This document shows positions 28,823 to 45,951 of a stretch of 64,000 bases of DNA, in pieces. The number at the start of each line of letters is the position of its first letter. Position 1 is the first letter of the stretch. A program made the translations under genes and the position numbers. The notes beneath the pieces were generated by a model. The model saw only the letters and a list, made by a program, of their open reading frames with translations. It was not told the origin of the DNA and made no database searches. The DNA comes from Lysobacter enzymogenes (GTDB lineage: Bacteria > Pseudomonadota > Gammaproteobacteria > Xanthomonadales > Xanthomonadaceae), in the NCBI RefSeq assembly GCF_017355525.1, contig NZ_CP067395.1:2666001-2730000 (forward strand), given 5' to 3'.

Positions 28823-28919
28823 GCCGCAATGTGACTGCGCGCACGGCAAGCAGAAAACGTGCCATCAGCGTCTTGGCCGCGACAGGTTCGTTAAGTTATC
28901 GTGGGCGGTGGAGGGCGTA

Positions 28920-30852: not shown

Positions 30853-30867
30853 TGGCACGAGCTCTGC
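30853..30867 (+). promoter_or_regulatory. Sigma-54 promoter of the first pilin gene
   Basis: TGGCACG-N4-CTGC matches the -24/-12 consensus TGGCACG-N4-TTGC with one mismatch and exact GG-to-GC spacing. It lies about 100 bases before the ATG. Confidence 0.85.
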
Positions 30868-30968: not shown

Positions 30969-31391
30969 ATGAACAAGCAGCAAGGCTTCACCCTGATCGA
31001 ACTGATGATCGTGATCGCGATCCTCGGCATCCTGATCGCGATCGCGTTGCCGGCGTATCAGGACTACACCATCCGTACCAAGAACGCCGAGTGCTTGAAC
31101 GTTGCCGCCGCGGCGAAGCTGGCGGTTTCCGAGACCGCCCAGGATCGCGGTTCGCTCGGTGCGATCACCGCGCAGTCCATCACCGGCTACAGCTTCAGCG
31201 CCAGCGAGTACTGCGCCGACGTGACCATCGGCGTCAAGGGCAAAATTACCGCCACCACCCGCGCCACCGGCGGCACCCCTTCGGCTGTCTTCGAACTGAC
31301 CCCCTCCGCCGATCTCGGCCGTATCGACTGGGTCTGCAAGGAAACCAACAAGGCCCGCAAGTCGCAGCTGCCGGCCGAGTGCAGGGGCTGA
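30969..31391 (+). CDS. pilA: Type IV major pilin (copy 1)
   Basis: A 140-residue type IVa prepilin. The leader MNKQQG is cut by PilD before Phe7, and the hydrophobic helix [19 protein letters not shown] carries the conserved Glu11 (Glu5 of the mature chain). Cysteines at 42, 82, 123 and 138; the last two probably form the C-terminal disulfide loop ([18 protein letters not shown]). A good AGGGGA Shine-Dalgarno precedes the ATG, and the gene has its own sigma-54 promoter and terminator. Residues 1-66 are almost identical to the next two pilins; the C-terminal half differs. Confidence 0.96.
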
Positions 31392-31464
31392 TTCGCGAGA
31401 CCCATCGCAACGCGATGATCGACGGATCAGGGCGCCGACCACGGCGCCTGCATCCGGCAGCCCG

Positions 31465-31494
31465 AACGCCGGCCCGCAAGGGCCGGCGTTTTTT
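31465..31494 (+). terminator. Rho-independent terminator of pilin copy 1
   Basis: AACGCCGGCCC-GCAA-GGGCCGGCGTT, an 11-bp perfect stem, is followed by TTTTG, 73 bases after the stop. Confidence 0.9.
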
Positions 31495-32117
31495 GTTCTG
31501 TCCGGCACAGCCGCGCGCAATTGCGCGCAACCAAAGGCTCGTTCCAGGGTCGGTCGAGGCCGCCGCCGACCGTCTGCCACGACTGCGAACAACAGCGAGC
31601 CAAACGAGCCGCAGAAAGTCGCCCGCACTGGGCCGGGCCTGCGGCTGCGCATGCTTCCTCAACACCGCCAGGCGTTGAGCGCCAAGCAGAGACGCGATCT
31701 TCGACTTCAGGCCCGACGCTCGCCCATGCCGCCACGCGGCCTCAACCCGCCCGTTATTGCGTACTAGTAAACGGGACCGGATACATCGCGCGACCGACGT
31801 CGGTCGGTAGCCGCATCAGCGAAGTACCGGCGCTGGCGTTAAAGACCAGGCGTACCTGCAGTTATTAGCCCTTCGGTTCAAGGGCCTGTTCAGCCGCCAA
31901 ATCCGGGCAAACCCCCTCGCGACGGACGTCGTGAAAACGCGCGGGCGGAAATGATTGATGACAATCACATTTCCAGGGTGGCGCCTTCCAATCTGACGCA
32001 TTTGGTCACCACTCCGGCCTCTGGACTGACCCAAAGCGTCACCCCGCTCACCCCTGCCCACCTTCGTTGCGTGACTGCCCTAGCAGTTTCACAGCCAGTG
32101 CCATCGGCATCGCTACT
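31495..32117. other. Large non-coding gap between pilin copies 1 and 2
   Basis: About 620 bases without a supportable gene, unusually long for this genome. From about 31740 the base composition is visibly more AT-rich than the surroundings, and stops interrupt all frames. Frames at 31521-31868 (+) and 31816-32061 (-) have no protein-like character. It could be relic DNA from the pilin duplication or an accessory insertion; I see no pilin-like coding remnant. Confidence 0.5.
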
Positions 32118-32132
32118 TGGCACGGGTTGTGC
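32118..32132 (+). promoter_or_regulatory. Sigma-54 promoter of the second pilin gene
   Basis: TGGCACG-N4-GTGC fits the -24/-12 consensus with one mismatch and correct spacing, about 100 bases before the ATG, the same geometry as copy 1. Confidence 0.8.
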
Positions 32133-32232
32133 GTAGTCCTTACGTGCACGGACAGCTCGCCTGGCACCTTCGATGGATCGAAAGCCTAGCCTGCTGGCAC
32201 GTGAAGCAACCAACACTCCTAGGGGATACACC

Positions 32233-32655
32233 ATGAAGAAGCAGCAAGGCTTTACCCTGATCGAACTGATGATCGTCATCGCGATCCTGGGCATCCTGAT
32301 CGCCATCGCTCTGCCGGCCTATCAGGACTACACCATCCGCACCAAGAACGCTGAGTGCATCAACGTCGCCGCCGCCGCCAAGCTGGCCGTGTCGGAAACC
32401 GCTCAGGACCGCGGCTCGCTGGGCGCGATCACCTCGCAGGCGATCACCGGCTACAGCTTCGCTGCCAGCAGCTACTGCGCCAGCGTGACCATCGCCGCCG
32501 GCGGCGAAATCACCGCCACCACCCAGGCCACCGGCGCTGGCACCCTCGCGGTCTTCAAGCTGACCCCGAGCTCCAACACCGGCCGCATCGACTGGGCTTG
32601 CACCGAGAGCGCCGGCGCCAAGAAGTCGCAGCTGCCGGCCGAGTGCCGCAAGTAA
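32233..32655 (+). CDS. pilA: Type IV major pilin (copy 2)
   Basis: A 140-residue type IVa prepilin, co-linear with copy 1: leader MKKQQG, Glu11, cysteines at 42, 82, 123 and 138 in the same places. Differences concentrate after residue 68 (for example [18 protein letters not shown] against [18 protein letters not shown]). The leader region CTAGGGGATACACC before the ATG nearly copies that of copy 1. Both genes have sigma-54 promoters, so both may be expressed as alternative or mixed major pilins. Confidence 0.95.
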
Positions 32656-32688
32656 TAGCTGAGACTCACGCTCCAAGCGCTTCACCAG

Positions 32689-32715
32689 AAACCCCGGTTC
32701 GCCGGGGTTTCTTCT
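32689..32715 (+). terminator. Probable terminator of pilin copy 2
   Basis: AAACCCCGG-TTCG-CCGGGGTTT forms a 9-bp stem followed by CTTCT, a weak T tail. Leak through it may be what transcribes pilin copy 3. Confidence 0.7.
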
Positions 32716-32812
32716 AGGTAAGGACGCAATGCCCAGCGTCCGCGCCGAACGGATCCACCCCCCTGTCGATCCAGACAACCAGCATCAACATCAGCGGTCT
32801 ACGGGGTTCCAT

Positions 32813-33220
32813 ATGAAGCGGCAAACAGGTTTTACTTTGATCGAGCTGATGATCGTGATCGCGATCCTCGGCATTCTCATCGCGATCGCGCTTCCGGCCT
32901 ACTTGGATTACGTCACGCGTACCAAGAACGCCGAATGCCTCAACGTAGCGGCTGCCGCCAAGCTATCGGTATCGGAAACCGCCCAGGACCGCGGCTCATT
33001 GAGCCTGGTCACTGCGACCAACACAGGCTACAGCTTCGCTGCTTCGAGCTACTGCGCCAGCGTCGACATCGGAGCCAACGGCGTAATTACGGCCGTCAGT
33101 TCCACCTCCAGCCCCGTCGCTTTCACCTTGCGCCCGACCTCGGGCAGAGGCGTACTCGAGTGGGATTGCAGCGTACCCAGCGGCACGAATCTGACGCTGG
33201 TGCCGGCGGAATGCCGCTGA
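32813..33220 (+). CDS. Type IV pilin-like protein (copy 3)
   Basis: A 135-residue prepilin with leader MKRQTG, Glu11 and four cysteines (42, 81, 119, 134). The first 64 residues track copies 1 and 2, but the body diverges most and the disulfide loop differs (WDCSVPSGTNLTLVPAEC). No sigma-54 promoter is seen in the 157 bases after copy 2, and the Shine-Dalgarno (GGGG) is poor. It may be a minor or weakly expressed pilin, or a sequence donor for recombination. The ATG at 32813 is set by the prepilin leader. Confidence 0.9.
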   Translation: MKRQTGFTLIELMIVIAILGILIAIALPAYLDYVTRTKNAECLNVAAAAKLSVSETAQDRGSLSLVTATNTGYSFAASSYCASVDIGANGVITAVSSTSSPVAFTLRPTSGRGVLEWDCSVPSGTNLTLVPAECR

Positions 33221-33342
33221 CAATCGGCTGAAGCGTCGCCCGCGCTGCCTGTTTGGAGCCGCTGCGCAACGCCTGCTCAACACTCGGCACGAACCGGTTC
33301 TTGCCTTTATAGTCTGCGCCGGGGATTTATCAGGACAGACTC

Positions 33343-35235
33343 ATGCAGGCTCGCATCGCGCTTTTCGCCGCTTTGGCGTTGACGGTGTTCGTTTACTGGA
33401 CGGGCCTCTCCGGCCCGTTCATGTTCGACGACCTACCGAATCTCAACCCTGTCCAGAACTGGCTCAACGGCGAGATGAGTTGGCAGTCGGTCATGCTCGA
33501 CAATCAGTCGGGCATGCTCGGCCGGCCGGTATCGATGGCCAGCTTCCTGCTCAGCGCCGAGTTGGGCGGACACACCCCGTTCGCCTACAAACTCGGCAAT
33601 CTGCTGATCCACCTGTTGTGCGGCCTGGTCGGTTGGCAGGTCCTGCGCCGCGCGCTTCGCGAAGACGGCCGGCTGCAGGCCAACGCCGATCTTTTGGCCG
33701 CCATCGCCGTCTCGCTGTGGTTGCTGCATCCGATCCACGTCAGCACCGTGCTCTATTCGGTGCAGCGCATGGCCCAGCTCAGCACCTTGTTCGTGCTGCT
33801 GTCCTTGTGGACTTATCTGACGGCGCGGCGCCAGCTGATCGAAAACCGCGTCGGGAAAGCGACGCTCAGCCTGTTCGTCCTGTTTCCCGCATTCTTCATC
33901 GCCGGCTTGCTGAGCAAGGAGAACGCCGCGGTCGCGCCCGCGCTGTGCCTGGTGTTCGAGCTGGCTTACTTCCTCGGCCGCACCGAACACCGTCGGGTCC
34001 GGCAAGCGTTCTTCGGCGTGTTTCTGGCGCTGCCCGCGCTGGGCGCGGTCGCCATTCTCGCGTCGTCGCCCGGGCGGCTCCTGGGCGGCTATTGGGAACG
34101 CGACTTCACCTTGACCGAGCGTCTGCTGACGCAGTCGCGGGCGCTGATGGACTACGTCGGCACGCTGCTGCTCCCGCGCACTCCGTTGCTGGGCCTGTAC
34201 ACGGACGATTTCGTCCCGTCCACCGGCTTGCTGAGCCCCGCGACCACGCTGTTGTCGCTGCTCGCATTGCTGGTCATCAGCGGCGGCGCCATCGCGCTCC
34301 GCAAGCGCGCGCCTACGTTCTTCGCCGGCTGGTTCTTCTTTTTGGTCGCGCACGGGGTGGAATCGAGCATCCTCGGGCTCGAACTGTACTTCGAGCATCG
34401 CAACTACCTGCCGGCATTCGGCCTGATCTTGGCGGTCATCGGGCTGACCTCGCTGATTCCCCACGACATCCCGACCAACATATTCAAGCCTCGCACGCTC
34501 GGCTTGCTGGTCGCAGGCGGGCTGGCGCTGTCCTTCGCCTTCGCCACCGGCGGCCGCGCCCGAGTCTGGCAGGCGGAAGACACCATCCTCGCGCAGGGAT
34601 TGAAGTTCCATCCCGACTCCATGCGCGCCCAGTTGCTCCGGGCCACGCATGCCTTGCAGCAAGCCAATCCCCAGGGCGCTTACGATGCGTTCGCCGATCT
34701 GCTGACCAGCCCGGTTGCGCGCAACAGGGTGATCGGCCGCATCAGCTGGGTCACGCTCGACTGCATGCTGCGAAAACCCGTCCTCGCCCAGGACTTGCGC
34801 ACCGCGGTGGCCGATGCGCGCCCGAACCTGAGCACCGCCGAGGTGCCCGCCCTGAGACTGCTGGCCAAAGTCAGCAGGGAACAAAACTGCGGCGAACTGA
34901 CCGACTCGGTGTTGGCCGACAGCCTGTTGACGATGCTCGACAAAGCCAAGAACCAGCCCGATCGTTCGCGCTCGAAATGGCTGACCCGCTACCTCACCGC
35001 CGAAGTCCTGGCGCGCGCCGGGCGCTTGCCGGAAGCGCAGCAACAAGCGGAGCTGGCCTGGAACGCCAGCGGCGACCTGCCCGTCGGCTCCTTGCTCGCC
35101 AACCTCTACGCGCATCGGAAGCTGCGCCCGCAGGCGGAGCAGTTGCTGACGGTCCTGGATCAACGCATGAAGCCCTACGACAAGATCGGCCGCGCGGAAC
35201 TGGCGAAGACCCGCGCACTGCTAGATCAGAAGTGA
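33343..35235 (+). CDS. GT-C membrane glycosyltransferase-like protein with TPR-like tail (copy 1)
   Basis: A 630-residue protein: about ten or more transmembrane segments to about residue 410, then a soluble helical, TPR-like tail. The first periplasmic loop has the acidic pair FMFDD (Asp29-Asp30), as GT-C enzymes that use polyprenyl-phosphate sugars do. Other marks are LHPIHVSTVLYSVQRMAQL, LLSKENAAVAP and YFEHRNYLPAFGL. The layout recalls TMTC-type O-mannosyltransferases. Directly after the pilins, it is a candidate pilin O-glycosyltransferase; neither donor nor acceptor is proven. A weak TATAGT box (33308-33313) lies upstream. Confidence 0.7.
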   Translation: MQARIALFAALALTVFVYWTGLSGPFMFDDLPNLNPVQNWLNGEMSWQSVMLDNQSGMLGRPVSMASFLLSAELGGHTPFAYKLGNLLIHLLCGLVGWQVLRRALREDGRLQANADLLAAIAVSLWLLHPIHVSTVLYSVQRMAQLSTLFVLLSLWTYLTARRQLIENRVGKATLSLFVLFPAFFIAGLLSKENAAVAPALCLVFELAYFLGRTEHRRVRQAFFGVFLALPALGAVAILASSPGRLLGGYWERDFTLTERLLTQSRALMDYVGTLLLPRTPLLGLYTDDFVPSTGLLSPATTLLSLLALLVISGGAIALRKRAPTFFAGWFFFLVAHGVESSILGLELYFEHRNYLPAFGLILAVIGLTSLIPHDIPTNIFKPRTLGLLVAGGLALSFAFATGGRARVWQAEDTILAQGLKFHPDSMRAQLLRATHALQQANPQGAYDAFADLLTSPVARNRVIGRISWVTLDCMLRKPVLAQDLRTAVADARPNLSTAEVPALRLLAKVSREQNCGELTDSVLADSLLTMLDKAKNQPDRSRSKWLTRYLTAEVLARAGRLPEAQQQAELAWNASGDLPVGSLLANLYAHRKLRPQAEQLLTVLDQRMKPYDKIGRAELAKTRALLDQK

Positions 35236-35236
35236 T

Positions 35237-37219
35237 ATGCACGGAGCCTTTGCAGCCAACCGGGCGTCGACAGGCGTCGCCGCGCCAGCCCGGTTCAATC
35301 GCGCGCATTGGCTCCTGTTCGCTGTCCTGCTTGCGACCTCGTTGATCTATGCGCTGGGTCTGGACGGCCCGTATCTGTTCGACGACAGCTTCAACCTGGA
35401 GCCGGTGCGGTTGTGGGAACGCGGCCGGTTAGGCTGGAGCGAAGCGATGTTCGGCAACGTCTCCGGCGTACTGGGGCGTCCGGTGTCGATGGCCAGCTTC
35501 ATGCTGAGCGCGGGCCTGGGCTCGCCCACGCCGCTGGACTACAAGCTCGGCAATCTGCTCATCCATCTGATTTGCGCGGTCTTGATCTATCGCCTGCTGC
35601 GTCGCCTGCTCGCAGGACGCGACGCGGCGCTCGCCGCAGTGGCGTTGACGGCGCTGTGGGCGCTGCATCCTCTCCACGTCAGCACCGTGCTGTACGCCAT
35701 CCAGCGCATGGCGCAGCTGAGCAGCCTGTTCGCATTGGCGTGTGTGCTCGCGTATCTGCGAGGCCGCGATTCGCTTCGAGACGATCGCAAACGCGCCGCC
35801 GGCCTTTGGTTGTTCGTGGCGTTTCCCCTGCTGTGGATCGCGGGATTGTTCAGCAAGGAAAACGCGGCGGTCGCTCCCCTGCTGTGCCTGGTTCTTGAGA
35901 TCGCCTACTTCCAGCGGACTCCCGCCTCCAAGCGTTGGCTATCGGCGTTCTACGCGGCCACTTTACTGCTGCCCGCCATTGCCGCGGCGTGGATACTTGC
36001 GTTCAAGCCGGGGACGGTTCTGGCCGGTTACGCGATCCGCGATTTCGGCATGCCCGAAAGACTGCTGTCGCAGAGCCGCGCGCTGGTCGACTATCTGGGA
36101 ATGTTGGCCGTCCCGCGCGCAGAGCGCATGGGATTGTTCGCCGACGACTTCGCGACCTCGCACGGCTTGTTTTCGCCGCCGACCACAGCGGCGGCGATCG
36201 TGTTTCTGTCGGCGGCCAGCATCGGCGCGATAGCGCTCAAGCGCAAAGCCCCGCATATCTTTGCGGGGTGGTTCTTCTTCCTGTTCGCGCACTCGGTCGA
36301 ATCCAGCATCCTGCCCCTGGAGCTGTATTACGAACATCGCAACTACCTTCCTTCGGTCGGTTTGCTGCTGATGCTCGCCGGATTGATCGGCCTGTTGCCG
36401 GCCGGTTGGCGATCCCGGCGCCGTGTGCGTTTCGGCATTGCCGGCCTGTGGGTCGCGGCCTGCATCGCGCTGGCGACGATCGCCGCGCAGCAGACGCAGG
36501 TCTGGCGAAGCAAAGATCTGATCGTAGAGCAAGCGCTGCGCGGACACCCCGAATCGGTCCGCGCCCGCCAGGCCAAGTTCGTGGCGCTGGTGAACAAGCG
36601 CCGGTACGACGAAGCCGAAGCGGTCCTGCGCCCCCTGGAATCGTCCGCGCAGCCACGCAGCCGTCTGCTCACCGAACTCGACCTGCTGTCCGTCGCGTGC
36701 CTGCGCGGCAGCGGCGTGGACCCGAACAGACTCGATCGCGCCGTCGCCGATGCCCAGCCCCGCCTGACCATCGGCGAGATGCAGTCGGTAGGCTTGCTGA
36801 TGCAGGTCACCGATGCGGGACGGTGCCCGGCCTTGAACGACGCCGAGATCGCCGGCGCGGTAGCGGCCCTGGCCGAAGCGGCAAGCGAACAAGGCGGCGA
36901 CATCCTGCCGAAATGGCAACTGCGCTACGCGGCCGCTTCGATCTACGCGCGCTCGGGCCACTGGCCGGACGCGTTGAAGCAGGCACGGCTCGCGGCGGTT
37001 CCGCCGGCAGGCATCGAAGTGGATGGGATTTTGATTCAGGCGCTCGCACATAATGGGCGTCTCGACGAGGCCCGCGAGAAACTGCGGGTGCTGGTCGGCA
37101 AAGCGGACCCTCGCGACCGTCGCGCAGGCTTCATCATCGAGCGCGCCCGCGACAGCATCGCGACGAGCGCCTCTCCCTCAACCTCCTCGGACACCCCGCC
37201 GCATGAGCCCCATCGATAG
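35237..37219 (+). CDS. GT-C membrane glycosyltransferase-like protein with TPR-like tail (copy 2)
   Basis: A 660-residue paralogue of the preceding gene, starting one base after its stop. The same landmarks recur in order: YLFDD (Asp49-Asp50), GRPVSMASFMLSA, YKLGNLLIHLI, LHPLHVSTVLYAIQRMAQLSS, LFSKENAAVAPLL, YYEHRNYLPSVGL, then a soluble helical tail from about residue 410. It has an extra N-terminal segment of about 20 residues. Retention of two diverged copies suggests different sugars or acceptor sites. The next gene begins 17 bases before this one ends. Confidence 0.7.
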   Translation: MHGAFAANRASTGVAAPARFNRAHWLLFAVLLATSLIYALGLDGPYLFDDSFNLEPVRLWERGRLGWSEAMFGNVSGVLGRPVSMASFMLSAGLGSPTPLDYKLGNLLIHLICAVLIYRLLRRLLAGRDAALAAVALTALWALHPLHVSTVLYAIQRMAQLSSLFALACVLAYLRGRDSLRDDRKRAAGLWLFVAFPLLWIAGLFSKENAAVAPLLCLVLEIAYFQRTPASKRWLSAFYAATLLLPAIAAAWILAFKPGTVLAGYAIRDFGMPERLLSQSRALVDYLGMLAVPRAERMGLFADDFATSHGLFSPPTTAAAIVFLSAASIGAIALKRKAPHIFAGWFFFLFAHSVESSILPLELYYEHRNYLPSVGLLLMLAGLIGLLPAGWRSRRRVRFGIAGLWVAACIALATIAAQQTQVWRSKDLIVEQALRGHPESVRARQAKFVALVNKRRYDEAEAVLRPLESSAQPRSRLLTELDLLSVACLRGSGVDPNRLDRAVADAQPRLTIGEMQSVGLLMQVTDAGRCPALNDAEIAGAVAALAEAASEQGGDILPKWQLRYAAASIYARSGHWPDALKQARLAAVPPAGIEVDGILIQALAHNGRLDEAREKLRVLVGKADPRDRRAGFIIERARDSIATSASPSTSSDTPPHEPHR

Positions 37220-38372
37220 CAAGCCGCCGTTCCTGGTCTTCGCTGCTCCCGACATCCAGGAGCCGGAAATCGCCGAAGTCGAAGCCTGTCTGCGTTCGGG
37301 ATGGCTCGGCACCGGGCCGCGCGTCGCCCGTTTCGAAGCCGACGTCGCCGCGTACAAAGGCATCGGGCCCGAACTCGTTGCGGGCGTCAACTCGTGTACG
37401 GCCGCAATGCACGTCAGCATGGTGGCCGCAGGCATGGAGCCAGGCAGCGAAGTCATCACCACGCCGATGACCTTCTGCGCCACCGTCAATTCGATCGTCC
37501 ACGCCGACCTGGTTCCGGTGCTGGCCGACGTGGATCCGGCGACCCAGAACATCGATCCCGATGCGATCGAAGCGGCGATCACGCCGCGCACGCGCGCCAT
37601 CCTTCCGGTGCATTTCGCCGGCAGGCCTTGCGACATGGAGCGCATCATGGCCATCGCGCGCAAGCACGACCTGATGGTCATCGAGGATTGCGCGCACGCG
37701 ATCGAAACCGAGTACCGCGGAACCAAGGCCGGCACGTTCGGGGATTTCGGCTGCTTCAGTTTTTACGTGACCAAGAACGTGGTCACCGGCGAGGGCGGCA
37801 TGATCGTGGGCCGCGATCCGAAACTGGTCGCGCGCGCACGCACGCTGGCTTTGCACGGAATGAGCAAGGACGCCTGGCATCGTTTCAGCGACAAGGGCTA
37901 CAAGCACTATCAAGTCGTCGAATGCGGCTTCAAGTACAACATGATGGACCTGCAAGCGGCGATCGGGCTGCACCAGCTCGCCCGCGTCGAGCAGAACTGG
38001 CTGCGGCGACGCGAAATCTGGCAGGCCTACGACGAAGCGCTGGCGGATCTGCCGCTGGGGCTGCCCGCGGCGCCCGAGGCCGATACCCGTCACGCCTTCC
38101 ATCTTTATACGGTGATGGTCGATCCCGAACGCGCGGGCATCGAACGCGATGTCTTCCTCGACCGCATGAATGCGCTCGGGATCGGCACCGGCGTGCACTA
38201 CCAGTCGGTCGCCGAACATCCTTATTACCGCGAACGCTTCGGCTGGCATCCCGATCAGTGGCCGAACGCCCGCAAGATCGGCCAGCGAACGGTGAGCCTG
38301 CCGATTTCCTCCAAGCTCAGCGATTCCGATCTGGCCCGGGTGGCCGCAGCGGTCGGCAGCGCGCTCGCCTGA
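37203..38372 (+). CDS. DegT/DnrJ/EryC1-family sugar aminotransferase
   Basis: A 389-residue PLP enzyme that puts an amino group on a nucleotide-linked keto-sugar. The PLP lysine is Lys191 in FSFYVTKNVVTGEGGM; Asp162 (IEDCAHAIE) and the N-terminal WLGTGPRVARFE are typical. The sugar is unknown. The ATG at 37203 overlaps the end of the GT-C gene by 17 bases. Presence of this enzyme implies an amino-sugar is made or modified by this module, although no dedicated dehydratase or epimerase lies in the window. Confidence 0.9.
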   Translation: MSPIDSKPPFLVFAAPDIQEPEIAEVEACLRSGWLGTGPRVARFEADVAAYKGIGPELVAGVNSCTAAMHVSMVAAGMEPGSEVITTPMTFCATVNSIVHADLVPVLADVDPATQNIDPDAIEAAITPRTRAILPVHFAGRPCDMERIMAIARKHDLMVIEDCAHAIETEYRGTKAGTFGDFGCFSFYVTKNVVTGEGGMIVGRDPKLVARARTLALHGMSKDAWHRFSDKGYKHYQVVECGFKYNMMDLQAAIGLHQLARVEQNWLRRREIWQAYDEALADLPLGLPAAPEADTRHAFHLYTVMVDPERAGIERDVFLDRMNALGIGTGVHYQSVAEHPYYRERFGWHPDQWPNARKIGQRTVSLPISSKLSDSDLARVAAAVGSALA

Positions 38373-38384
38373 TCCACGCCGCAG

Positions 38385-39371
38385 ATGCCGCATCTTCCTT
38401 CCCACCCATCGGATCGCGCGGCTGCGGCCGAGGCGCCCGCCGGCAAACGCCACGGGCTCGCCCGGCGCATTTTGACCTGGGCGCTGATACTCGCAGCCGG
38501 CGCGTTCCTGGTCCGCGTGCTCGCGCCGCAGATGGCCCTGGTCGGCACCTCGATCCGCGACGTGCGCTGGTGGCAGGTCGCCGCGGCCATCGTCGTGGCG
38601 ACGCCGATGTACGCGCTGAAGGGCTGGTACCACCTCAATCTGCTCGACCGGCTCAATCGCGGACGCAGTTCGCGGCGCGAAGCGCTGCCGATCTATCTGC
38701 AGGCGCAGATCGTGCGTTACCTGCCGGGCAAGATCTGGGGGGTGGTGTATCAAAGCCAGCGCATGGCCGCGACCCATCGCGCCAGCGACGTGGTGATCGC
38801 CAATCTTTGGCAGATGGCGACCACCAACGCGCTGGCCGTCGGCCTGGTCGTGAGCTTGCTGCTGGCCCTGCGGGTTTCGATGGCCTGGCTGCTGTTGCTA
38901 GTACCCGTTGTGCTGGCGGTGGAGTGGCTGCATCGCCATCCCGCCATCGAAACCTGGGGACTGCGTCTGCTGAGCCGGTTCCTGCCGAAGCTGGCGCCGC
39001 TCGCCTCCAGCGAACCGGTTCCGCCGATGCCGTGGAAGGGCACGGCCCTGCTGTGCTCGGAATGGATTTTCTATTTCCTCGCGTTCGCGGCGATCCTGTA
39101 CGGCCGGGTCGGCTGGTACGAGTGGGCCTTGCTCGGCACGTGGTACGGCGGCGCTTCGGTATTGGCGCTGGCGGCTTTCGTCGTCCCGGCCGGCATCGCG
39201 GTTCGCGAGGCGATCTTCGTCTCGGCACCGAGCTTGATCGGCGTGGACGCCGCGACCTTGGCGGTGACCGCCGCGTTGGCGCGGCTGGCGTTCCTGGCGG
39301 CCGAAATCGCGGCCGCCGCGTTCGCGACCGTATTCGCTCTCGCCCTGAGACCCCGCCGTGAACGACGCTGA
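38385..39371 (+). CDS. Lysylphosphatidylglycerol synthase TM region / flippase-like membrane protein
   Basis: A 328-residue inner-membrane protein with about eight hydrophobic segments. The pattern YLQAQIVRYLPGKIWGVVYQSQRM and FVVPAGIAVREAIFVSAP is that of the UPF0104/LPG_synthase_TM superfamily, which contains MprF-type lipid flippase domains; the soluble aminoacyl-transferase domain is absent. Beside lipid-linked sugar genes, a lipid or glycolipid translocation role is plausible but unproven. Confidence 0.75.
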   Translation: MPHLPSHPSDRAAAAEAPAGKRHGLARRILTWALILAAGAFLVRVLAPQMALVGTSIRDVRWWQVAAAIVVATPMYALKGWYHLNLLDRLNRGRSSRREALPIYLQAQIVRYLPGKIWGVVYQSQRMAATHRASDVVIANLWQMATTNALAVGLVVSLLLALRVSMAWLLLLVPVVLAVEWLHRHPAIETWGLRLLSRFLPKLAPLASSEPVPPMPWKGTALLCSEWIFYFLAFAAILYGRVGWYEWALLGTWYGGASVLALAAFVVPAGIAVREAIFVSAPSLIGVDAATLAVTAALARLAFLAAEIAAAAFATVFALALRPRRERR

Positions 39372-40107
39372 CCGCCAGCAACGCGAGCATTGGGACGGTC
39401 TGGCCGGCATCGATCCGGATGCGGCGATCATCGACCCGTTGGACCGTCGCGGCCTGAAGAACCGGTATTTGGCCGCGATCCGCGATGGCGCGTTCGAGGA
39501 CAGCATGGCCCGACACGGGATCGTCGCCGGCGCGTTGCTCGACCTGGGCTGCGGTACCGGCAGCGCTTCGCAGCCGCTGATGCGCGCGGGGCACCGCATC
39601 GTCGGCGTCGATATTTCTCTCGGCCTGCTGCGCCACGCCCGCGCTCGCTGCGGCGACGAAGGCTGTGCGTTCGTCAAGACCGACGGACACGCGCTTCCCA
39701 TCGCCGACGCGGCGATGGACGCCGCCGTGATCTATGTGGTGTTGAGCTATCTGACCGACGATGCGGCCGCCTTGGCGCTTCTGCGCGCCGCGCGCGCCGC
39801 GCTCAAACCCGGCGCGCCCTTGGTGATGATCGAGCAGGCGCGCCGCAGACGCAGACTCTGCGAGGACGGATTGAAGATCCATCGCACCATTGCGCAGTGG
39901 AACTCGTTGCTGGAACAAGCCGGCTTCGCCCTCGGGCGCTGCACCGTTCTGCGCCATGGCCGCTTCCCGACGACGCCGCTGGTACGCCTCGGGCTGCTGC
40001 CGCAGCGCAGTTGGGCCTTGCTCGCCCGCCTGGAAGCGCGGGTGGCTCGCTGGACCGGCGTGTTCGGCTGGGATTACGCCGAGGTCCGCTTCGAGGCGAA
40101 AGCATGA
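39358..40107 (+). CDS. SAM-dependent class I methyltransferase
   Basis: A 249-residue methyltransferase with SAM-binding motif I LLDLGCGTGSASQP (about 61-74), VDISLGLLRHAR, and post-motif PIADAAMDAAVIYVVLSYLTD. Start is GTG, 14 bases inside the preceding gene; the stop overlaps the next ATG (ATGA). Target unknown: a sugar or a lipid intermediate of the surrounding pathway is the likeliest guess. Confidence 0.85.
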   Translation: MNDADRQQREHWDGLAGIDPDAAIIDPLDRRGLKNRYLAAIRDGAFEDSMARHGIVAGALLDLGCGTGSASQPLMRAGHRIVGVDISLGLLRHARARCGDEGCAFVKTDGHALPIADAAMDAAVIYVVLSYLTDDAAALALLRAARAALKPGAPLVMIEQARRRRRLCEDGLKIHRTIAQWNSLLEQAGFALGRCTVLRHGRFPTTPLVRLGLLPQRSWALLARLEARVARWTGVFGWDYAEVRFEAKA

Positions 40108-41168
40108 TCGCCATCATCGGCGGCGGCCCGGCGGGCATCGCCTTGGCGGCGGAGCTCGATGCGCTCTCGATCGGATACGAGCTGTTCGAGGAACGCCAGT
40201 TGGCCGCAACCTGGCGCGCCGCGCCGCCGGACCTGCGGGTTCTGAGTCCGTGGTGGACCAATGTGCTGCGCTGGCGCGATGCCTTGCGCGGCAATCCTTT
40301 GCGCAAATCGCCGGCCAGAGAGTATGTGGCCCACCTGCTCGAAGTCTCCGGCGGCCTGCGCGGAGCCGTCCACGAGCGCACCCGGATCTCGGCGATAGAG
40401 ACGGCGCAGAACGGCCATTGGCGCTTGTTCACCGAACACGGCGAGCGCGGAGTCTATTCGGCCGTCGTGCTGGCCACCGGCTATTTTTTCCGCCCCATGC
40501 TGCCGCAGCCGGAAATCGTCAGCGACGGTTCGCTGCCGATGCTCCACGCCGCGCAAATTTCCGACTACGCGCAATTGAACGGTTTGCGCGCCGGCGACGC
40601 CCCCGTCGTGGTGGTCGGGCGCCGAGTGACGGCAGGGCAGTTGATGCTCGAATTGAACGCCAGGGGCATTGCGTGCGCTTTGAGCCTGCGTTCCCCGATC
40701 GAGTACCGCCGCCACGGCCTTGTCGCCTCGCTGCGCGAAGCGGCCTATTTCTTCTGGGAGGAGTTGCAGGCGCGCCTGCGCCCGGGCTTACGCCGCCCTT
40801 CTTACCCGGTCATGGACGGCGGAGCGACGCGTGCGCTGGTGGACAGCGCGACGGTGAAGATCTGGCCGAAAATCGACCGCATCGAGCGCGGCGCGCTCTT
40901 GCTCGAGGACGGTCGCCGGGTCGAGGCCGCGGCGGTGGTGTTGGCCACTGGCTACCGCGCCGTGCTCGACCTGCTGCCGCAGCCTGCGGAACTCGACGAA
41001 TACGGCGTTCCGGCGCATCGCGATTTCGAATTGCGCGCGCATCCCGGCCTGTACCTGCTGGGTTTCGACAACCTCTACGATCATCGCAGCCGTTATCTGC
41101 GCGGCATCCGCGCCGACGCCCGGCGCTTGGCGCACCGGTTGTCCATGCGCTCAACCGCGGCGAAATGA
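40104..41168 (+). CDS. FAD-dependent oxidoreductase (flavin monooxygenase-like)
   Basis: A 354-residue flavoprotein. FAD-binding GGGPAG is at 6-11, an FMO-like LSPWWTN follows, ATGY motifs occur at about 135 and 295 (VVLATGY), and the C-terminal YLLGFDNLYDHRSRYLRGIR closes the FAD site. The second dinucleotide-binding loop reads VVVVGRRVTAGQ, lacking the middle glycine of GxGxxG, so NADPH binding may be altered. It is coupled to the methyltransferase by a four-base overlap, suggesting consecutive oxidation and methylation of one substrate. Its 3' end overlaps the convergent gene by 18 bases. Confidence 0.82.
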   Translation: MIAIIGGGPAGIALAAELDALSIGYELFEERQLAATWRAAPPDLRVLSPWWTNVLRWRDALRGNPLRKSPAREYVAHLLEVSGGLRGAVHERTRISAIETAQNGHWRLFTEHGERGVYSAVVLATGYFFRPMLPQPEIVSDGSLPMLHAAQISDYAQLNGLRAGDAPVVVVGRRVTAGQLMLELNARGIACALSLRSPIEYRRHGLVASLREAAYFFWEELQARLRPGLRRPSYPVMDGGATRALVDSATVKIWPKIDRIERGALLLEDGRRVEAAAVVLATGYRAVLDLLPQPAELDEYGVPAHRDFELRAHPGLYLLGFDNLYDHRSRYLRGIRADARRLAHRLSMRSTAAK

Positions 41169-42032
41169 ATCCACCGCCTTGCTCAAGCGCAACGCGATGG
41201 AGAAGCCTTTGGCGCGCAACGGACGCAGCGCCAGGTCGCTGACGGTCAACGCCTCGTCGCTGCCGCCCCACGCGCGCTTGTAGGCGCTCAGGCTCGACTG
41301 CCCGGGCGGAGACGGCAGGAAGTCGAAACGCTGCATGCCCGCCTCGCGGGCGCGCCGGAGCATTTCGAGGAACAACAGGTCGGACGGATAGTGCGCGCGC
41401 GCTTCGGGATCGTGCGCCCCGTGCATGTAACACGCCCTGCCTCGCTGAAAGCCCGCGCAGACGAAACCGCAGATCGTCCCGTCCAGTTCCGCCACGATCG
41501 CGGCGGCCGGGGCGATGAGTTCGAAGTAGCGGCGGTTGTAACGGATCGAACCGCCGTGCCGGCGCAGCGTCGCCTGATACAGACGGTCGATCTGTGCGCC
41601 GTCTTCGGCGCGTCCCGGCCGCAACCGCAACGGCGAGCGCGGCGCCCGGTTGCCGGCGCGCCGGGCCTTTTCCCACGAACGTTCCTGCCAATCGGCGAGC
41701 CGCCCGATCGCGATGCTGCCGATCGAATGCACGGCCTGGACGCGCGCATCGACGGGCGCCTGGGCCGCTTGCAGCCGAATCAGGTCGGCGCGCAGTCCGG
41801 CAGCGGCGGCAACGCGCTCGTCGAGCGCCTGCGCATCCAAAACCGCTGAGCTACCGATCAGGAAATCCGGATACGCAACGCGGAACGGGCCGGCCTTGAA
41901 GCAGGCCACCGTACCGCCGTCGCGCAATCGCGTCAGTTGCGCGCCCAAGCCTTCGCCGAGGGCTTGCGTCCATTGGGCGGAGTCCAGATCAAGCACGTTT
42001 CGGACCGCCCGTCCGCATCGTCCCGGCGACAT
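41151..42032 (-). CDS. FemAB/GNAT-fold acyl- or aminoacyltransferase-like protein
   Basis: A 293-residue protein; the C-terminal half (about 135-270) is a GNAT/FemAB-type fold: YQATLRRHGGSIRYNRRYFELI, IVAELDGTICGFVCAGFQRGRACYMHGAHD and SDLLFLEMLRRAREAGMQRFDFLPSPPGQSSLSAYKRAWGG. Such proteins in polysaccharide loci add acyl or amino-acid groups. The ATG used overlaps the upstream glycosyltransferase by 44 bases; a GTG at 41996 would reduce this to 8 bases and is a good alternative. Confidence 0.75.
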   Translation of the reverse strand: MSPGRCGRAVRNVLDLDSAQWTQALGEGLGAQLTRLRDGGTVACFKAGPFRVAYPDFLIGSSAVLDAQALDERVAAAAGLRADLIRLQAAQAPVDARVQAVHSIGSIAIGRLADWQERSWEKARRAGNRAPRSPLRLRPGRAEDGAQIDRLYQATLRRHGGSIRYNRRYFELIAPAAAIVAELDGTICGFVCAGFQRGRACYMHGAHDPEARAHYPSDLLFLEMLRRAREAGMQRFDFLPSPPGQSSLSAYKRAWGGSDEALTVSDLALRPLRAKGFSIALRLSKAVDSFRRG

Positions 42033-43137
42033 CCTCGGCGATTCCGCGCAAGGAGAAGCGCTCGCTCATTTTCGCCAACGCCGCTTCGTCGTGACCGCTG
42101 CGCAGGCAATGGGCGATCGCCTCGGCAAACGCCGGCGCCGAGACTTGCCCGGCCAGCCAGCCGGTTCCCCTGCCGATCAACGACGGCAAGTCGCCGACCG
42201 GCATCGACACGACCGGCAACCGGAACTTCATCGCATCGGAATAGACCACGGGAATGCTTTCTACGCGCGACGGCAGCAGCAACCTGTCGGCTTCGGCGAA
42301 CGCCCGCGAAGCGCCCTCCTTGTTGAGATAGCCGCTGAGCCGCATCGGACGCCCATCGCGCTGCAGAGCCTGCACGGCCTCGGCGACGAGTTCCGCGAGC
42401 GGTCCGCCGCCGGCGATGTGGACCTCGGCGATCAGTCGCCAATCCTCGTCCTTCAGCAGACGCAGGGATTCCAGCAGAAGATCCACGCCCTTGTTCGGAT
42501 GCCAGCGCCCCAGAAACAAAAGCCGCCAAGGCGGCGACGACGCGACCGGCCTGTCCCGACGCGCATCGAGTCTGCGAGTGCTCGGAAGAAAGGCGAACTC
42601 GCGCCCGGTCAACGCGGTGGCGTCCGCTCCCAGCTTCAGCCCGTCCGCATAGGCCGCATGCGCCTGCAGCGATATCCGCTTCAAAAAACCTCTCACCACC
42701 GGCAGCCGGCCCAGCGACCAGATATCGCTGCCCAATGCCCACACGCTGTAGTTCGTACCGTGCCGGCGCTTGAGCGAGCGCGCCGCCCATCCCGACGGCA
42801 GGACCCAGAATGCGAGGGCGTGCGCGACGCGACCGTCGGCGCCCGCAGCGATGGTGATGCGCCGCAAGGAACGCAGCGTGCCGAAGATCGCCGGCCAGTT
42901 TCGCGGATCCGCGGGAGACAACAACGAAAGCGGCTTGTCCGGCGCGCGGAAGGTCCAGACCTCGACCTCGCCGACCCGCGAAACGCCTTCGGCCCGTCCC
43001 GGCACTACCGCGCGCACCGGCATGATCGCGCTCAATTCCTCGGCCAGATCGGCGACGAACGCACCGGCGGCCTCGCTGCCGTCGCCGCCCTGAGCGAACG
43101 ACGTGCTGATCAGCAGTGCGGTATCGGATTCGGCCAT
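41989..43137 (-). CDS. GT4-type glycosyltransferase
   Basis: A 382-residue GT-B enzyme. The C-terminal Rossmann half shows WRLLFLGRWHPNKGVDLLLESLRLL, AEVHIAGGGPL, MRLSGYLNKEGASRAFAEADRLLLPSRVESIPVVYSDAM; in the last part the usual second Glu of the E-x7-E donor-binding motif is Asp. The start MAESDTALLIS was chosen (ATG at 43137); an in-frame TTG at 43179 is possible. It is expected to act on the cytoplasmic face, adding a sugar to a lipid- or nucleotide-linked acceptor. Confidence 0.85.
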   Translation of the reverse strand: MAESDTALLISTSFAQGGDGSEAAGAFVADLAEELSAIMPVRAVVPGRAEGVSRVGEVEVWTFRAPDKPLSLLSPADPRNWPAIFGTLRSLRRITIAAGADGRVAHALAFWVLPSGWAARSLKRRHGTNYSVWALGSDIWSLGRLPVVRGFLKRISLQAHAAYADGLKLGADATALTGREFAFLPSTRRLDARRDRPVASSPPWRLLFLGRWHPNKGVDLLLESLRLLKDEDWRLIAEVHIAGGGPLAELVAEAVQALQRDGRPMRLSGYLNKEGASRAFAEADRLLLPSRVESIPVVYSDAMKFRLPVVSMPVGDLPSLIGRGTGWLAGQVSAPAFAEAIAHCLRSGHDEAALAKMSERFSLRGIAEDVAGTMRTGGPKRA

Positions 43138-43225
43138 ATCGCTCAGGTATCCGAGCCGCGCGCCCGTCCCGACAGGCAAGGGCTCGTCGGCGCCGATGAG
43201 CCCGCGCTCGCGCAGGGCGGGCGGC

Positions 43226-44089
43226 TCATGGCCTATCGGTGCGCGTATTGTAGGTCAGCGACGTGATCTGCTCGGAAATCAGCCCGATCAGAAACACGAT
43301 CACCGCCGCGCTCAACATCAGCGCGCTCATGTTGGTGAAACGGCCTTCGTTGAAGTAAGTCCAGGCGTAGTGCCCCAGCCCCAACGCGGCGAAGCCGAGC
43401 GAGGTCGGCAAGAACAGCTTCAGCGGCGAATACAGGGTGGCGATCTTGAAGATGATCAGCAGGAAGCGGATACCGTCGCGCAGCGGCCGGATATGGCTCT
43501 GCGTGCCGACCCGCTTGGCCACGTCGATCGGCACGTAGGTCACCGGGTAGGCGCTGCGGAAGAACGCCATCGTGCTGGTGGTCGGGTAGCTGAAACCGTT
43601 CGGCAGCAGGTGCAGGAACTCGCGGAACTTGGCCGCGCGCACGGCGCGGAAGCCCGAGGTCAGGTCCTGGACCTTGTGCCCGGTCATCCAGCTGGCCAGC
43701 CGGTTGTACAGCGCGTTGGCCGCGCCGCGGCCGATGCTGGCCTGGCCGCTGGCGTTGCGCGCGCCCACCGCCATGTCGTAGCCGCGGTCGAGCTCGGCCA
43801 GCAGCAAGGAAATATGGCCCGGATCGTGCTGGCCGTCGGCGTCCATGAACACGATCACCTCGCCGCGCGCGGCGCGCGCGCCGCGCTTGATCGCCGCGCC
43901 GTTGCCCATCGAATACGGCGAGCTCAGCACCCGCGCGCCGAGCGTGGCGGCGATCTGGGCGGTGTCGTCGGTCGAACCGTCGTCGACCACGATGATCTCC
44001 GCGTCCGGCCACGCCGCACGCAGCGCCGGCAAGGTACGGCGCAGCCCCTCCGACTCGTTCTTGGCCGGCAAAACAATAGAAATAGACAT
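43226..44089 (-). CDS. GT2 glycosyltransferase with C-terminal membrane anchor (polyprenyl-phosphate sugar synthase-like)
   Basis: A 287-residue GT2 enzyme: SISIVLPAKNESEGL, IIVVDDGSTDDT, the metal site MDADGQHDPGH, and GFRAVRA, all like DPM1/GtrB-type synthases that build polyprenyl-phosphate monosaccharides. Two C-terminal hydrophobic segments (LKLFLPTSLGFAALGLGHYAW and MSALMLSAAVIVFLIGLI) anchor it to the inner membrane. A strong GGGGAGGT Shine-Dalgarno precedes the ATG. Its likely product is the type of donor that GT-C enzymes use, which ties it to the two tandem GT-C genes. Confidence 0.87.
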   Translation of the reverse strand: MSISIVLPAKNESEGLRRTLPALRAAWPDAEIIVVDDGSTDDTAQIAATLGARVLSSPYSMGNGAAIKRGARAARGEVIVFMDADGQHDPGHISLLLAELDRGYDMAVGARNASGQASIGRGAANALYNRLASWMTGHKVQDLTSGFRAVRAAKFREFLHLLPNGFSYPTTSTMAFFRSAYPVTYVPIDVAKRVGTQSHIRPLRDGIRFLLIIFKIATLYSPLKLFLPTSLGFAALGLGHYAWTYFNEGRFTNMSALMLSAAVIVFLIGLISEQITSLTYNTRTDRP

Positions 44090-44223
44090 GCCACCTCCCC
44101 GTGGCGGAGGATACCTTGTCCCGGTTGGACCTGACACGGGCCGACCGCAGAATAGCGACGCCGTTCCGCTCGCCACGACCTGAGATTGCGGTAAAGTCAG
44201 GGTGGGGAAAACTGAGGGCTGAG

Positions 44224-45951
44224 ATGTCCACCGCTACTGCCAACCTGGTGGGAATCACCGGCATTGCCCGGCGTTTGGTCATGGACGGCGCCCTGGACGA
44301 GGTCAAGGCCCGCGAAGCGATGGCCGCGGCCAGCGCCGAGCGCAAGCCGCTGGCCTCATACCTGGCTGAGAACCGCCTGGCGACCTCGGCCCAGCTGGCC
44401 GCCGCCAACTCCATCGAATTCGGCGTGCCGCTGTTCGATCCGACCGCGATGGATCCGAACCAGTCGGCCTCGCGCCTGATCAGCGACGAACTGGTGCGCA
44501 AGCACAACGCGCTGCCGCTGTTCAAGCGCGGCAACAAGCTGTTCATCGGCCTGGCCGATCCGACCAACAGCCGCGCGCTCGACGAGATCAAGTTCCAGAC
44601 CAATCTGGTCATCGAAGCGATCCTGGTCGACGAGGCCCTGATCAAGTCGACCCTCGACCGCTGGACCGAAACCAACGACACCCTCGGCGACGCGGTCGGC
44701 GACGGCGAAGGCCTGGACACCCTGGAGGTCGGCAAGGACGACGAGGGCCTGGGCGCCGGCGGCGACACCGGCATCGACGCCAAGGGCGACGACACCCCGG
44801 TGGTGAAGTTCGTCAACAAGGTGCTGGTCGACGCGATCCGCCGCGGCGCCTCGGACATCCACTTCGAGCCCTACGAAACCGAATACCGGGTGCGCCTGCG
44901 CATCGACGGCCTGCTCAAGCAGGTCGCCAAGGTCCCGAACAAGCTGCATTCGCGCATCGCCGCGCGCCTGAAGGTCATGGCGCAGCTGGACATCGCCGAG
45001 AAGCGCGTGCCGCAGGACGGGCGCATCAAGCTCAACCTGTCCAAGACCAAGCAGATCGACTTCCGCATGAGCACCTTGCCGACCCTGTTCGGCGAGAAGA
45101 TCGTGCTGCGTATCCTCGACGGCTCGGCCGCGCGCCTGGGCATCGAAAAGCTCGGCTACGAGGACGACCAGCGCGACCTGTTCGTCAACGCGGTGGTCAA
45201 GCCTTACGGCATGGTCCTGGTGACCGGCCCGACCGGCTCGGGCAAGACGGTGTCGCTGTACACCGCGCTGAACATCCTCAACGACGACCAGCGCAACATC
45301 TCCACGGTCGAGGACCCGGTCGAAATCCGCGTGCCGGGCATCAACCAGGTGCAGATGAACGTCAAGCGCGGCATGACCTTCGCCGCCGCGCTGCGCAGCT
45401 TCCTGCGCCAGGATCCGGACGTGATCATGGTCGGCGAAATCCGCGACCTCGAGACCGCCGAAATCGCCATCAAGGCCGCGCAGACCGGCCATATGGTGCT
45501 GTCGACCCTGCACACCAACGACGCCCCGCAGACCATCGCGCGCCTCATGAACATGGGCGTGGCGCCGTACAACATCACCTCCTCGGTGACCCTGGTGATC
45601 GCCCAGCGCCTGGCCCGGCGCCTGCACGACTGCAAGCGCGAGGTCCACCTGCCGGAACACGCGCTGCTGGCCGAAGGCTTCACCCACGAAGAAATCGCCG
45701 CCGGCATCGCCCTCTTTGAACCGGTCGGCTGCCCCGACTGCACCGAGGGCTACAAGGGCCGTACCGGCATCTACCAGGTCATGCCGATGACCGAAGAAAT
45801 CCAGGCGATCGTGCTCGAAGGCGGCAACGCGATGCAGATCGCCGCCGCCGCCACCCGGTCCGGCGTGCGCGACCTGCGCCGCTCGGCCCTGGTCAAGGTG
45901 CTCAACGGCGTCACCAGCCTGGCCGAAATCAACCGCGTAACCAAGGACTAA
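44224..45951 (+). CDS. pilB: Type IV pilus extension ATPase PilB
   Basis: Cytoplasmic GspE-family ATPase powering pilus assembly. The 575 residues include an N-terminal GspE/MshEN domain (1-150), an acidic linker (about 160-190), Walker A GPTGSGKT (335-342), the Asp and His boxes (STVEDPVEIRVPGINQ, STLHTNDAPQTIARLMNMG) and a four-cysteine zinc site (HDC, GCPDCTEG). Divergent from the GT2 gene; pilC follows after three bases. Confidence 0.97.
   Translation: MSTATANLVGITGIARRLVMDGALDEVKAREAMAAASAERKPLASYLAENRLATSAQLAAANSIEFGVPLFDPTAMDPNQSASRLISDELVRKHNALPLFKRGNKLFIGLADPTNSRALDEIKFQTNLVIEAILVDEALIKSTLDRWTETNDTLGDAVGDGEGLDTLEVGKDDEGLGAGGDTGIDAKGDDTPVVKFVNKVLVDAIRRGASDIHFEPYETEYRVRLRIDGLLKQVAKVPNKLHSRIAARLKVMAQLDIAEKRVPQDGRIKLNLSKTKQIDFRMSTLPTLFGEKIVLRILDGSAARLGIEKLGYEDDQRDLFVNAVVKPYGMVLVTGPTGSGKTVSLYTALNILNDDQRNISTVEDPVEIRVPGINQVQMNVKRGMTFAAALRSFLRQDPDVIMVGEIRDLETAEIAIKAAQTGHMVLSTLHTNDAPQTIARLMNMGVAPYNITSSVTLVIAQRLARRLHDCKREVHLPEHALLAEGFTHEEIAAGIALFEPVGCPDCTEGYKGRTGIYQVMPMTEEIQAIVLEGGNAMQIAAAATRSGVRDLRRSALVKVLNGVTSLAEINRVTKD

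Follow-up and report, generated by a model that had tools for sequence, protein, structure and literature searches.

The region described here lies in the genome of Lysobacter enzymogenes (class Gammaproteobacteria, family Lysobacteraceae), a single contig of 5.95 Mb (NZ_CP067395.1), and was analysed as a window of 64,000 nucleotides (nt), i.e. the whole stretch from position 2,666,001 to 2,730,000 of the forward strand. Window positions 30969–44089 carry a putative pilin glycosylation locus, comprising three type IV pilin genes, the genes for two membrane proteins with a C-terminal region resembling tetratricopeptide repeats (TPR), here referred to as the transferases GT-C1 and GT-C2, six cargo genes, and a GT2 glycosyltransferase gene adjoining pilB. 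The features, identified by Pfam and NCBIfam profile scans of the window proteins, are as follows in window coordinates.

27197..28822, plus strand: pilS, flanking gene (PF25323 6TM_PilS, HisKA, HATPase_c)
28908..30344, plus strand: pilR, sigma-54 activator, flanking gene (PF00158, PF00072, HTH_8)
30853..30867, plus strand: sigma-54-like site 116 bp 5′ of the pilin 1 ATG (exact TGGCACGN5TGC)
30969..31391, plus strand: pilin 1 (PF07963 and PF00114)
31464..31491, plus strand: intrinsic terminator-like hairpin 3′ of pilin 1 (hairpin scan)
32118..32132, plus strand: sigma-54-like site 115 bp 5′ of the pilin 2 ATG (exact match)
32233..32655, plus strand: pilin 2 (PF07963 and PF00114)
32813..33220, plus strand: pilin 3, adjoining GT-C1 and its probable cognate acceptor (PF07963 and PF00114; co-variation)
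33343..35235, plus strand: GT-C1, membrane protein with a TPR-like C-terminal region (homologue alignment)
35237..37219, plus strand: GT-C2, old paralogue of GT-C1 at 43–45% identity (alignment, tree)
37203..38372, plus strand: DegT/DnrJ/EryC1/StrS aminotransferase, cargo (PF01041, 415 bits)
38385..39371, plus strand: flippase-like membrane protein, cargo (PF03706, 26.1 bits, below the cut-off of 33.4)
39358..40107, plus strand: class I methyltransferase, cargo (PF13649/PF08241)
40104..41168, plus strand: flavin adenine dinucleotide (FAD)-dependent oxidoreductase, cargo (PF13738, 55 bits)
41151..42032, minus strand: GNAT-type acyltransferase, cargo (PF13480, Acetyltransf_6, 56 bits)
41989..43179, minus strand: GT4 glycosyltransferase, cargo (PF13692, PF00534)
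43226..44089, minus strand: GT2, DPM/GtrB/AglJ-like, with C-terminal hydrophobic segments, core gene adjoining pilB (PF00535, 114.5 bits)
44221..45951, plus strand: pilB, flanking gene (PF00437, PF05157)
45955..47223, plus strand: pilC, flanking gene (PF00482)
47243..48130, plus strand: pilD, flanking gene (PF01478, PF06750)

All the genes named in an earlier, sequence-only reading of this stretch were recovered in the scans, and the overlapping gene ends it had pointed out are real: GT-C2 and the DegT gene share 17 nt, the methyltransferase and FAD genes 4 nt, and the convergent FAD and GNAT genes 18 nt. GNAT, GT4 and GT2 are encoded on the minus strand and run towards the plus-strand genes, so that the set comprises at least two transcription units. 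The flippase-like label of that reading stands only as a match below cut-off, and in the composite label FemAB/GNAT the acetyltransferase part was retained whereas the FemAB model reached 32 bits against a cut-off of 260. The closest function models of the DegT protein were ArnB and PseC, both under their cut-offs, and no nucleotide-sugar dehydratase was found by these scans among the window's sugar genes; this absence and the interchangeability of the cargo sets described below contradict the proposal of one fixed or complete pathway. The idea that the cargo is foreign DNA of low G+C was rejected, the cargo G+C of 64.6–68.8% being inside the window's range.

The core genes were followed in 119 loci, each covering about 20 kb 5′ of pilB (less at contig ends), from the window and 118 further genomes. 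These represent 104 of the 113 family genomes with pilB and 15 further genus genomes; the nine family genomes left out mostly have pilB near a contig end, but include G004, which has enough sequence there. Profiles of the transferases and of the pilB-side GT2 were run against all open reading frames (ORFs), because the gene caller used for the cargo missed transferases in several genomes. For a transferase to be counted, a plus-strand match above 60 bits was required; for the GT2, the match had to exceed 150 bits, lie on the minus strand and be no more than 900 bp from pilB. Both were present in 62 loci and neither in 47, with one alone in 10. The pilin-pilB distance was 3.6–18 kb in the 62 loci with both genes; in the 47 loci without the pair, the pilin lay 18–733 bp from pilB in 31, and no pilin was seen in 5. 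The mixed loci comprised five with transferases only (G126, G127, G128, G015 and G062), two with a GT2-cluster gene called slightly further from pilB (G027 and G087), one with a split transferase and a GT2 match at 992 bp from pilB, i.e. beyond the limit (G036), one with a weak 73-bit match (G053), and one that is rearranged (G095). The transferase-only loci (L049–L053, in G126, G128, G127, G015 and G062, respectively) hold two or three transferases, and in all but one of these five loci a pilin gene separates the transferases. In the rearranged pil loci of G064 (L062) and G095 (L152/L153), the transferase and pilB are on opposite strands, and G064 was entered as having neither gene in the count of 119.

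A separate GT-C1 search of 119 family genomes detected the transferase in 60, with 82 matches in total; of these matches, 79 were on the pilB strand and no further than 20 kb upstream of pilB. An orthologue of the locus GT2 (79–100% identity) was found in 13 of the 20 Lysobacter genomes, i.e. in 12 of the 19 others at 79–92% identity, and all these 12 had filled intervals; it was absent, with only matches of 39% or less, from five transferase-only and two transferase-less Lysobacter genomes. The locus GT2 therefore does not look like a housekeeping gene. Its best NCBIfam match was TIGR04182 AglJ, at 121 bits under the cut-off of 325; AglJ is the priming enzyme of the dolichyl-phosphate-linked oligosaccharide pathway of Haloferax. 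Three more DPM-like GT2 genes are located elsewhere in the genome (4750776, 4643580 and 4341336), with 31–36% identity to the locus GT2.

The core of pilin, membrane/TPR transferase-like protein and DPM/GtrB-like GT2 recurs in many Gammaproteobacteria. When a profile of 92 homologues (alignment A1) was run against 369 genomes of the class, with pilB as the only marker of type IV pili, the transferase was present in 103 (ca. 28%) and pilB in 275; both were found in 101 genomes, the transferase without pilB in 2, pilB only in 174 and neither in 92 (odds ratio 26.7, Fisher p 4e-13, no kinship correction). The claim that the module serves the pilin survived both comparisons that had been suggested for it, of the pilA-pilB interval across the family, where the transferase is rarely elsewhere, and of genomes lacking type IV pili. 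Gene context was viewed for 49 of the 103 transferase-bearing genomes, besides the window and G029, with 52 others left out. A pilin-like ORF was near the transferase in 36 of the 49 loci (28 of 36 family codes), i.e. in 19 of the 29 best-scoring loci viewed with flanks of about 1.5 kb, and in 17 of 20 further loci with flanks of up to about 7 kb. The pilin pattern was found in none of 56 control stretches upstream of pilR, 10 window tiles and 4 PMT_2 loci, these controls being at most 4.5 kb and so shorter than the 20 further loci. The frequent order in the class was pilR, pilin, transferase(s), GT2, and in Parahaliea aestuarii the pilin, two transferases and GT2 are contiguous, beside pilB and pilC.

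Family genomes differ in the genes between transferase and GT2, very near relatives included. Genes in the other genomes were called with a simple codon-score caller trained on 15 window genes, and the cargo counts are approximate. Among 71 transferase-GT2 intervals 66 different gene contents were distinguished, a figure that includes caller noise. The intervals held 647 called genes, of which 391 fell into clusters with a scanned representative and 256 were without annotation. The scanned representatives proved to be sugar enzymes; by genome, GT4s and further GT2s were present in 48 of the 71, methyltransferases in 38, nucleotide-sugar enzymes in 37, and flippase-like proteins in 14. The motif of PF02397-type priming phosphoglycosyltransferases, searched as a pattern and not as a profile, occurred in none of the 647 called genes; stray VGPRP was found in four uncalled interval ORFs.

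Comparison of 14 Lysobacter loci with the window showed the six cargo genes and GT2 whole in two (G120 and G119), with cargo proteins 57–84% identical, and G090 carries both transferases and nearly the whole cargo, with a match to only one tenth of the DegT length. Recurrence of the cargo with GT2 in these genomes indicates that the arrangement is not due to chance. In G120 and G119 pilB is 90% identical to that of the window, and each has one transferase, of GT-C1 type in G120 and of GT-C2 type in G119, so the two transferases cannot be regarded as a fixed part of the module: the second is missing in G120, a relative with the same cargo. G130 and G123 in turn have pilB 97–98% and pilR 97% identical to the window genes and transferases only 43–47% identical, and no match to the window DegT, flippase-like, methyltransferase, FAD, GNAT or GT4 protein was found in their pilB-upstream stretch.

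The intervals of G123, G125 and G129 (L036, L041 and L042) share clusters for a UbiA-type phosphoribosyltransferase, DprE1 and DprE2, which form the D-arabinofuranose (D-Araf) donor route of mycobacteria according to passages in PMC11127046. The UbiA-family protein of G129 scored over the NF006088 cut-off and reached 154.7 bits with the decaprenyl-phosphate phosphoribosyltransferase model (cut-off 207), with 352 bits for the DprE1-like (cut-off 500) and 171 bits for the DprE2-like protein (cut-off 250). TfpW is reported, in a part of PMC11841053, to attach D-Araf to Pseudomonas pilin. The same three loci encode a further 632 aa protein missed by the transferase profile; one of the homologues of this protein carries the name RgtA/B/C/D-like. 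G132 (L046) and G133 (L045) have no transferase but a 581 aa protein between pilin and pilB. In G133 this is phosphoethanolamine-transferase-like (Sulfatase PF00884, with CptA and EptA models below cut-off), which suggests a putative phospho-form modification of the pilin in these two genomes. The D-Araf donor genes and the phosphoethanolamine-transferase-like protein show that functions with a known role in pilin modification in other systems occur repeatedly in the interval.

Pilin and transferase formed 76 neighbour pairs in 68 genomes, with a gap of at most 324 bp in 71 pairs and of 1.4–1.9 kb in 5. On the basis of co-variation, with pilR distance as the kinship control (61 of the 76 pairs, those with pilR), the transferase appears to track its adjacent pilin within the genus; outside the genus this could not be told. 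For the 21 genus pairs with a second pilin, the partial r was 0.65 for the adjacent pilin (given the other) and −0.07 for the other pilin; given pilR, r was 0.68 for the adjacent vs 0.31 for the other pilin, and the adjacent value was not attained in any of 2000 permutations. For pilin 3, the best match had 71–84% identity in the nine genomes whose transferase is of GT-C1 or GT-C2 type, 58–62% in three with another transferase type (G130, G123 and G129), and 65% and 49% in two genomes without a transferase. No simple sequon was evident by eye in the pilins.

GT-C1 (630 aa) and GT-C2 (660 aa) belong to no curated family. A crude scan gave about 8 hydrophobic peaks, and TPR models, the only recurring match, were C-terminal, with TPR_19 reaching E 0.01 or lower in 34 of the 60 homologues scanned. 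No named GT-C family was matched at E 0.01 among these 60 members, and of 10 proteins compared with PMT, one gave a single match, which was sub-threshold at 17.4 bits (cut-off 22.7). The pair D29-D30, just past the first hydrophobic segment, is invariant in the 92 homologues and nearly so in the second set of 60; R61, K83, H129, E340 and E351-Y355 are also invariant in A1, and the motif EHRNYLP is invariant or nearly so among homologues. D29-D30 and EHRNYLP would fit a putative GT-C active site, and the invariant residues and TPR matches together fit a putative TMTC-like GT-C. The TMTC O-mannosyltransferases similarly have a hydrophobic N-terminal half, an acidic pair past the first hydrophobic segment and a TPR C-terminal half; unlike them, the proteins of this study give no DUF1736 or PMT match over cut-off and are linked to pilins in bacteria. 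Full-length prokaryotic TMTC homologues exist and are described as uncharacterised in a part of PMC7801869. Database homologues are mostly labelled hypothetical or TPR protein, two being named protein O-mannosyl-transferase and one ArnT family glycosyltransferase. A recent duplication as the origin of GT-C1 and GT-C2 was rejected, as the tree (a quick method, with SH-aLRT support only) groups each of the two alongside the proteins that occupy the equivalent position in other Lysobacter. GT-C1 had no match at E 1e-20 in plasmid and phage records, nor did six exact peptide patterns of the transferase in a check of phage and plasmid carriage. Neither this transferase family nor a hypervariable pilA-pilB sugar locus in Lysobacteraceae was recognised in searches of open-licence full texts, a scope outside which most subscription papers fall; the family is unmentioned in passages of PMC2585010, PMC3826837, PMC9956873, PMC4471445, PMC12826054 and PMC9239064.

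With a probability of roughly 0.78, these observations reflect a pilin-dedicated periplasmic glycosylation locus composed of a conserved core and exchangeable cargo, in which a swappable set of sugar genes between the pilins and the pilus motor very probably decorates the pili; that the glycan is attached to the pilin we infer from linkage. The constancy of the GT2 amid changing cargo, its best model AglJ and the lack of a PF02397-type motif in the called interval genes point to the GT2 as the enzyme that would prime the lipid carrier, i.e. load undecaprenyl phosphate with the first sugar. The lipid-linked glycan might then be extended by GT4 and flipped by the PF03706-like protein, with DegT, GNAT, the methyltransferase and the FAD enzyme making or decorating a presumed amino- or acylamino-type sugar. 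GT-C1, whose TPR region may read the pilin, would pass the glycan prior to assembly to Ser/Thr residues of the pilin encoded next to it, in the first place pilin 3, and GT-C2, as an old and positionally conserved paralogue, may serve another pilin or add another unit. Exchange of cargo would alter the pilus coat, and phages that bind pili are a plausible source of selection for it. A broader version, which we hold to be somewhat favoured, is that a previously undescribed pilin-specific transferase family with a GT-C-like membrane half and a TPR half forms, together with a GtrB-like priming GT2, a common gammaproteobacterial pilin O-glycosylation system, and in Lysobacteraceae a capsule-like hypervariable locus giving a species- or strain-specific coat, in which the flanking pilin and pilB genes are conserved, the cargo between them is exchanged and every transferase suits the pilin next to it.

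Several results weigh against this interpretation. The label GT-C, assigned in the sequence-only reading, lacks a basis in family models, as neither protein had a Pfam or NCBIfam match over cut-off, and the membrane half had no PDB or Pfam relative over cut-off. When the transferase was compared, profile against profile, with four PMT_2 proteins encoded in the same genome, no similarity emerged, a result without weight because the method had no working positive control and also failed between other possibly related sets. As for distribution, two transferase-bearing class genomes had no pilB match (G172 and G478), and no pilin was seen in the stretch viewed at 13 of the 49 class loci, although the flanks of the best-scoring 29 were about 1.5 kb, so that the 10 without a pilin there include contig ends and second copies. 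At 11 of the 47 pair-less family loci, 1.8–6.9 kb of other DNA separates pilin and pilB. The five transferase-only Lysobacter genomes have neither the GT2 orthologue nor called interval sugar genes, which means that the GT2 is not always needed and that these genomes must supply the donor from a site outside the interval. The notion of one GT-C per pilin was rejected, as pilin and transferase numbers do not track: loci with one pilin had one transferase in 11 cases and two in 9, those with two pilins had one in 30 and two in 13, and 8 transferase loci had more than two pilins. Outside the genus, the 24 two-pilin pairs gave 0.05 for the adjacent vs 0.30 for the other pilin, and the difference over all 45 pairs was modest (0.36 vs 0.20). 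Moreover, joint transfer of linked genes alone could produce the co-variation of transferase and pilin.

The membrane/TPR proteins might instead be pilin chaperones or assembly factors, comparable to TfpY of Pseudomonas pilins, alongside which sugar genes merely accumulated. We consider this unlikely, although the proteins have no similarity over cut-off to known transferases, transferase-only loci exist, and TPR regions usually bind proteins. TfpY-type accessory proteins occupy the same place, as stated in a part of PMC11841053. The membrane/TPR protein is, however, present in 62 of the 63 loci with a pilB-side GT2, the sole exception being the rearranged G095 with the gene on the other side of pilB; its pairing with GT2 recurs in the class, and the (nearly) invariant D29-D30 and EHRNYLP would be compatible with a GT-C active site.

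The odds appear slim that a cell-surface polysaccharide or a modified O-antigen is the product of the locus, with the pilin-pilB position serving as a tolerant insertion site. Its cargo genes (GT4, GT2, epimerases, GDP-mannose dehydratase, Wzx-like proteins, C-methyltransferases) are typical of O-antigen and exopolysaccharide loci, but the PF02397-type primer of Wzx/Wzy systems did not turn up among the called interval genes of the 71 genomes, the transferase lies near pilins in the 36 class loci, five Lysobacter genomes have it after pilins without any called sugar gene, and the plasmid and phage records yielded no GT-C1 match. A division into two systems, with GT-C1 and GT-C2 modifying the pilin from a donor made elsewhere and the minus-strand GT2-GT4-GNAT operon serving another glycan, is likewise doubtful: it would suit the convergent operons on opposite strands and the transferase-only Lysobacter genomes, but GT2 and transferase are jointly present or absent in 109 of the 119 loci, and in other families of the class GT2 is often directly 3′ of the transferase on the same strand.

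Read as a pilin-dedicated glycosylation locus, the system resembles the TfpO/TfpW cassettes of Pseudomonas aeruginosa in having accessory genes directly 3′ of a pilin gene (in TfpO/TfpW the major pilin) and 5′ of pilB, a terminator-like hairpin 3′ of a pilin gene, a near restriction to genomes with pilB, and, in the interval of some Lysobacter, a donor pathway for D-Araf, which is also the sugar of TfpW. It differs from them, compared by description, in proteins of 630–660 aa with a TPR-like C-terminus, often in tandem, in a dedicated GT2 with variable sugar cargo, and in a pilin-pilB distance that reaches about 18 kb. A GT2, a flippase-like protein and a membrane transferase acting outside, as proposed for this locus, are also combined in Gtr-type systems (GtrA flippase, GtrB polyprenyl-phosphate-sugar synthase, Gtr GT-C) and in the pentofuranose three-component systems with GT136 presented in passages of PMC11127046; unlike in these, the acceptor here would be pilin and not O-antigen, there are extra sugar enzymes, and the transferase has no family model. 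Haloferax AglJ, as the best GT2 model, would be in keeping with a GT2 that primes the carrier, with later extension and en bloc transfer of the glycan, but the score is under the AglJ cut-off and the AglJ pathway is N-linked with a different transferase. Flagellin glycosylation islands share strain-variable sugar genes beside a filament subunit gene, and differ from this locus, which has a type IV pilin, a putative periplasmic transferase and far more varied cargo in the sample seen. Pilin-linked accessory glycosylation is known as a kind; what appears to be new is the type of transferase, how widely it occurs, and the exchange of cargo.

If the interpretation is true, pilin glycosylation would be far commoner than the few known systems suggest, performed by a family mostly unnamed in databases, and diversified by cassette exchange as in O-antigen and capsule loci. 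It would then explain the differing pilus surface of sister species and yield testable predictions on phage receptor variation, and would offer transferases with apparent pilin specificity for glycoengineering as well as a handle on the role of the TPR half in TMTC-like proteins.

Regarding expression signals, the exact sigma-54-type sites precede pilins 1 and 2, with the pilR gene close by, and no exact site was found 5′ of pilin 3 or of either transferase. Allowing one mismatch, the pattern occurred 9 times in the whole window vs 12 expected, so only the placement of the sites is suggestive. A third exact site (28850–28864, minus strand) lies between pilS and pilR and is directed away from pilR. 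Terminator-like hairpins numbered 6 in the region vs 2.6 expected. According to passages in PMC11841053, a Rho-independent terminator 3′ of the pilin gene is a common trait of pilin accessory cassettes, is thought to damp expression of the accessory cassette, and is also present in other organisms, including Xanthomonas campestris pv. vesicatoria.

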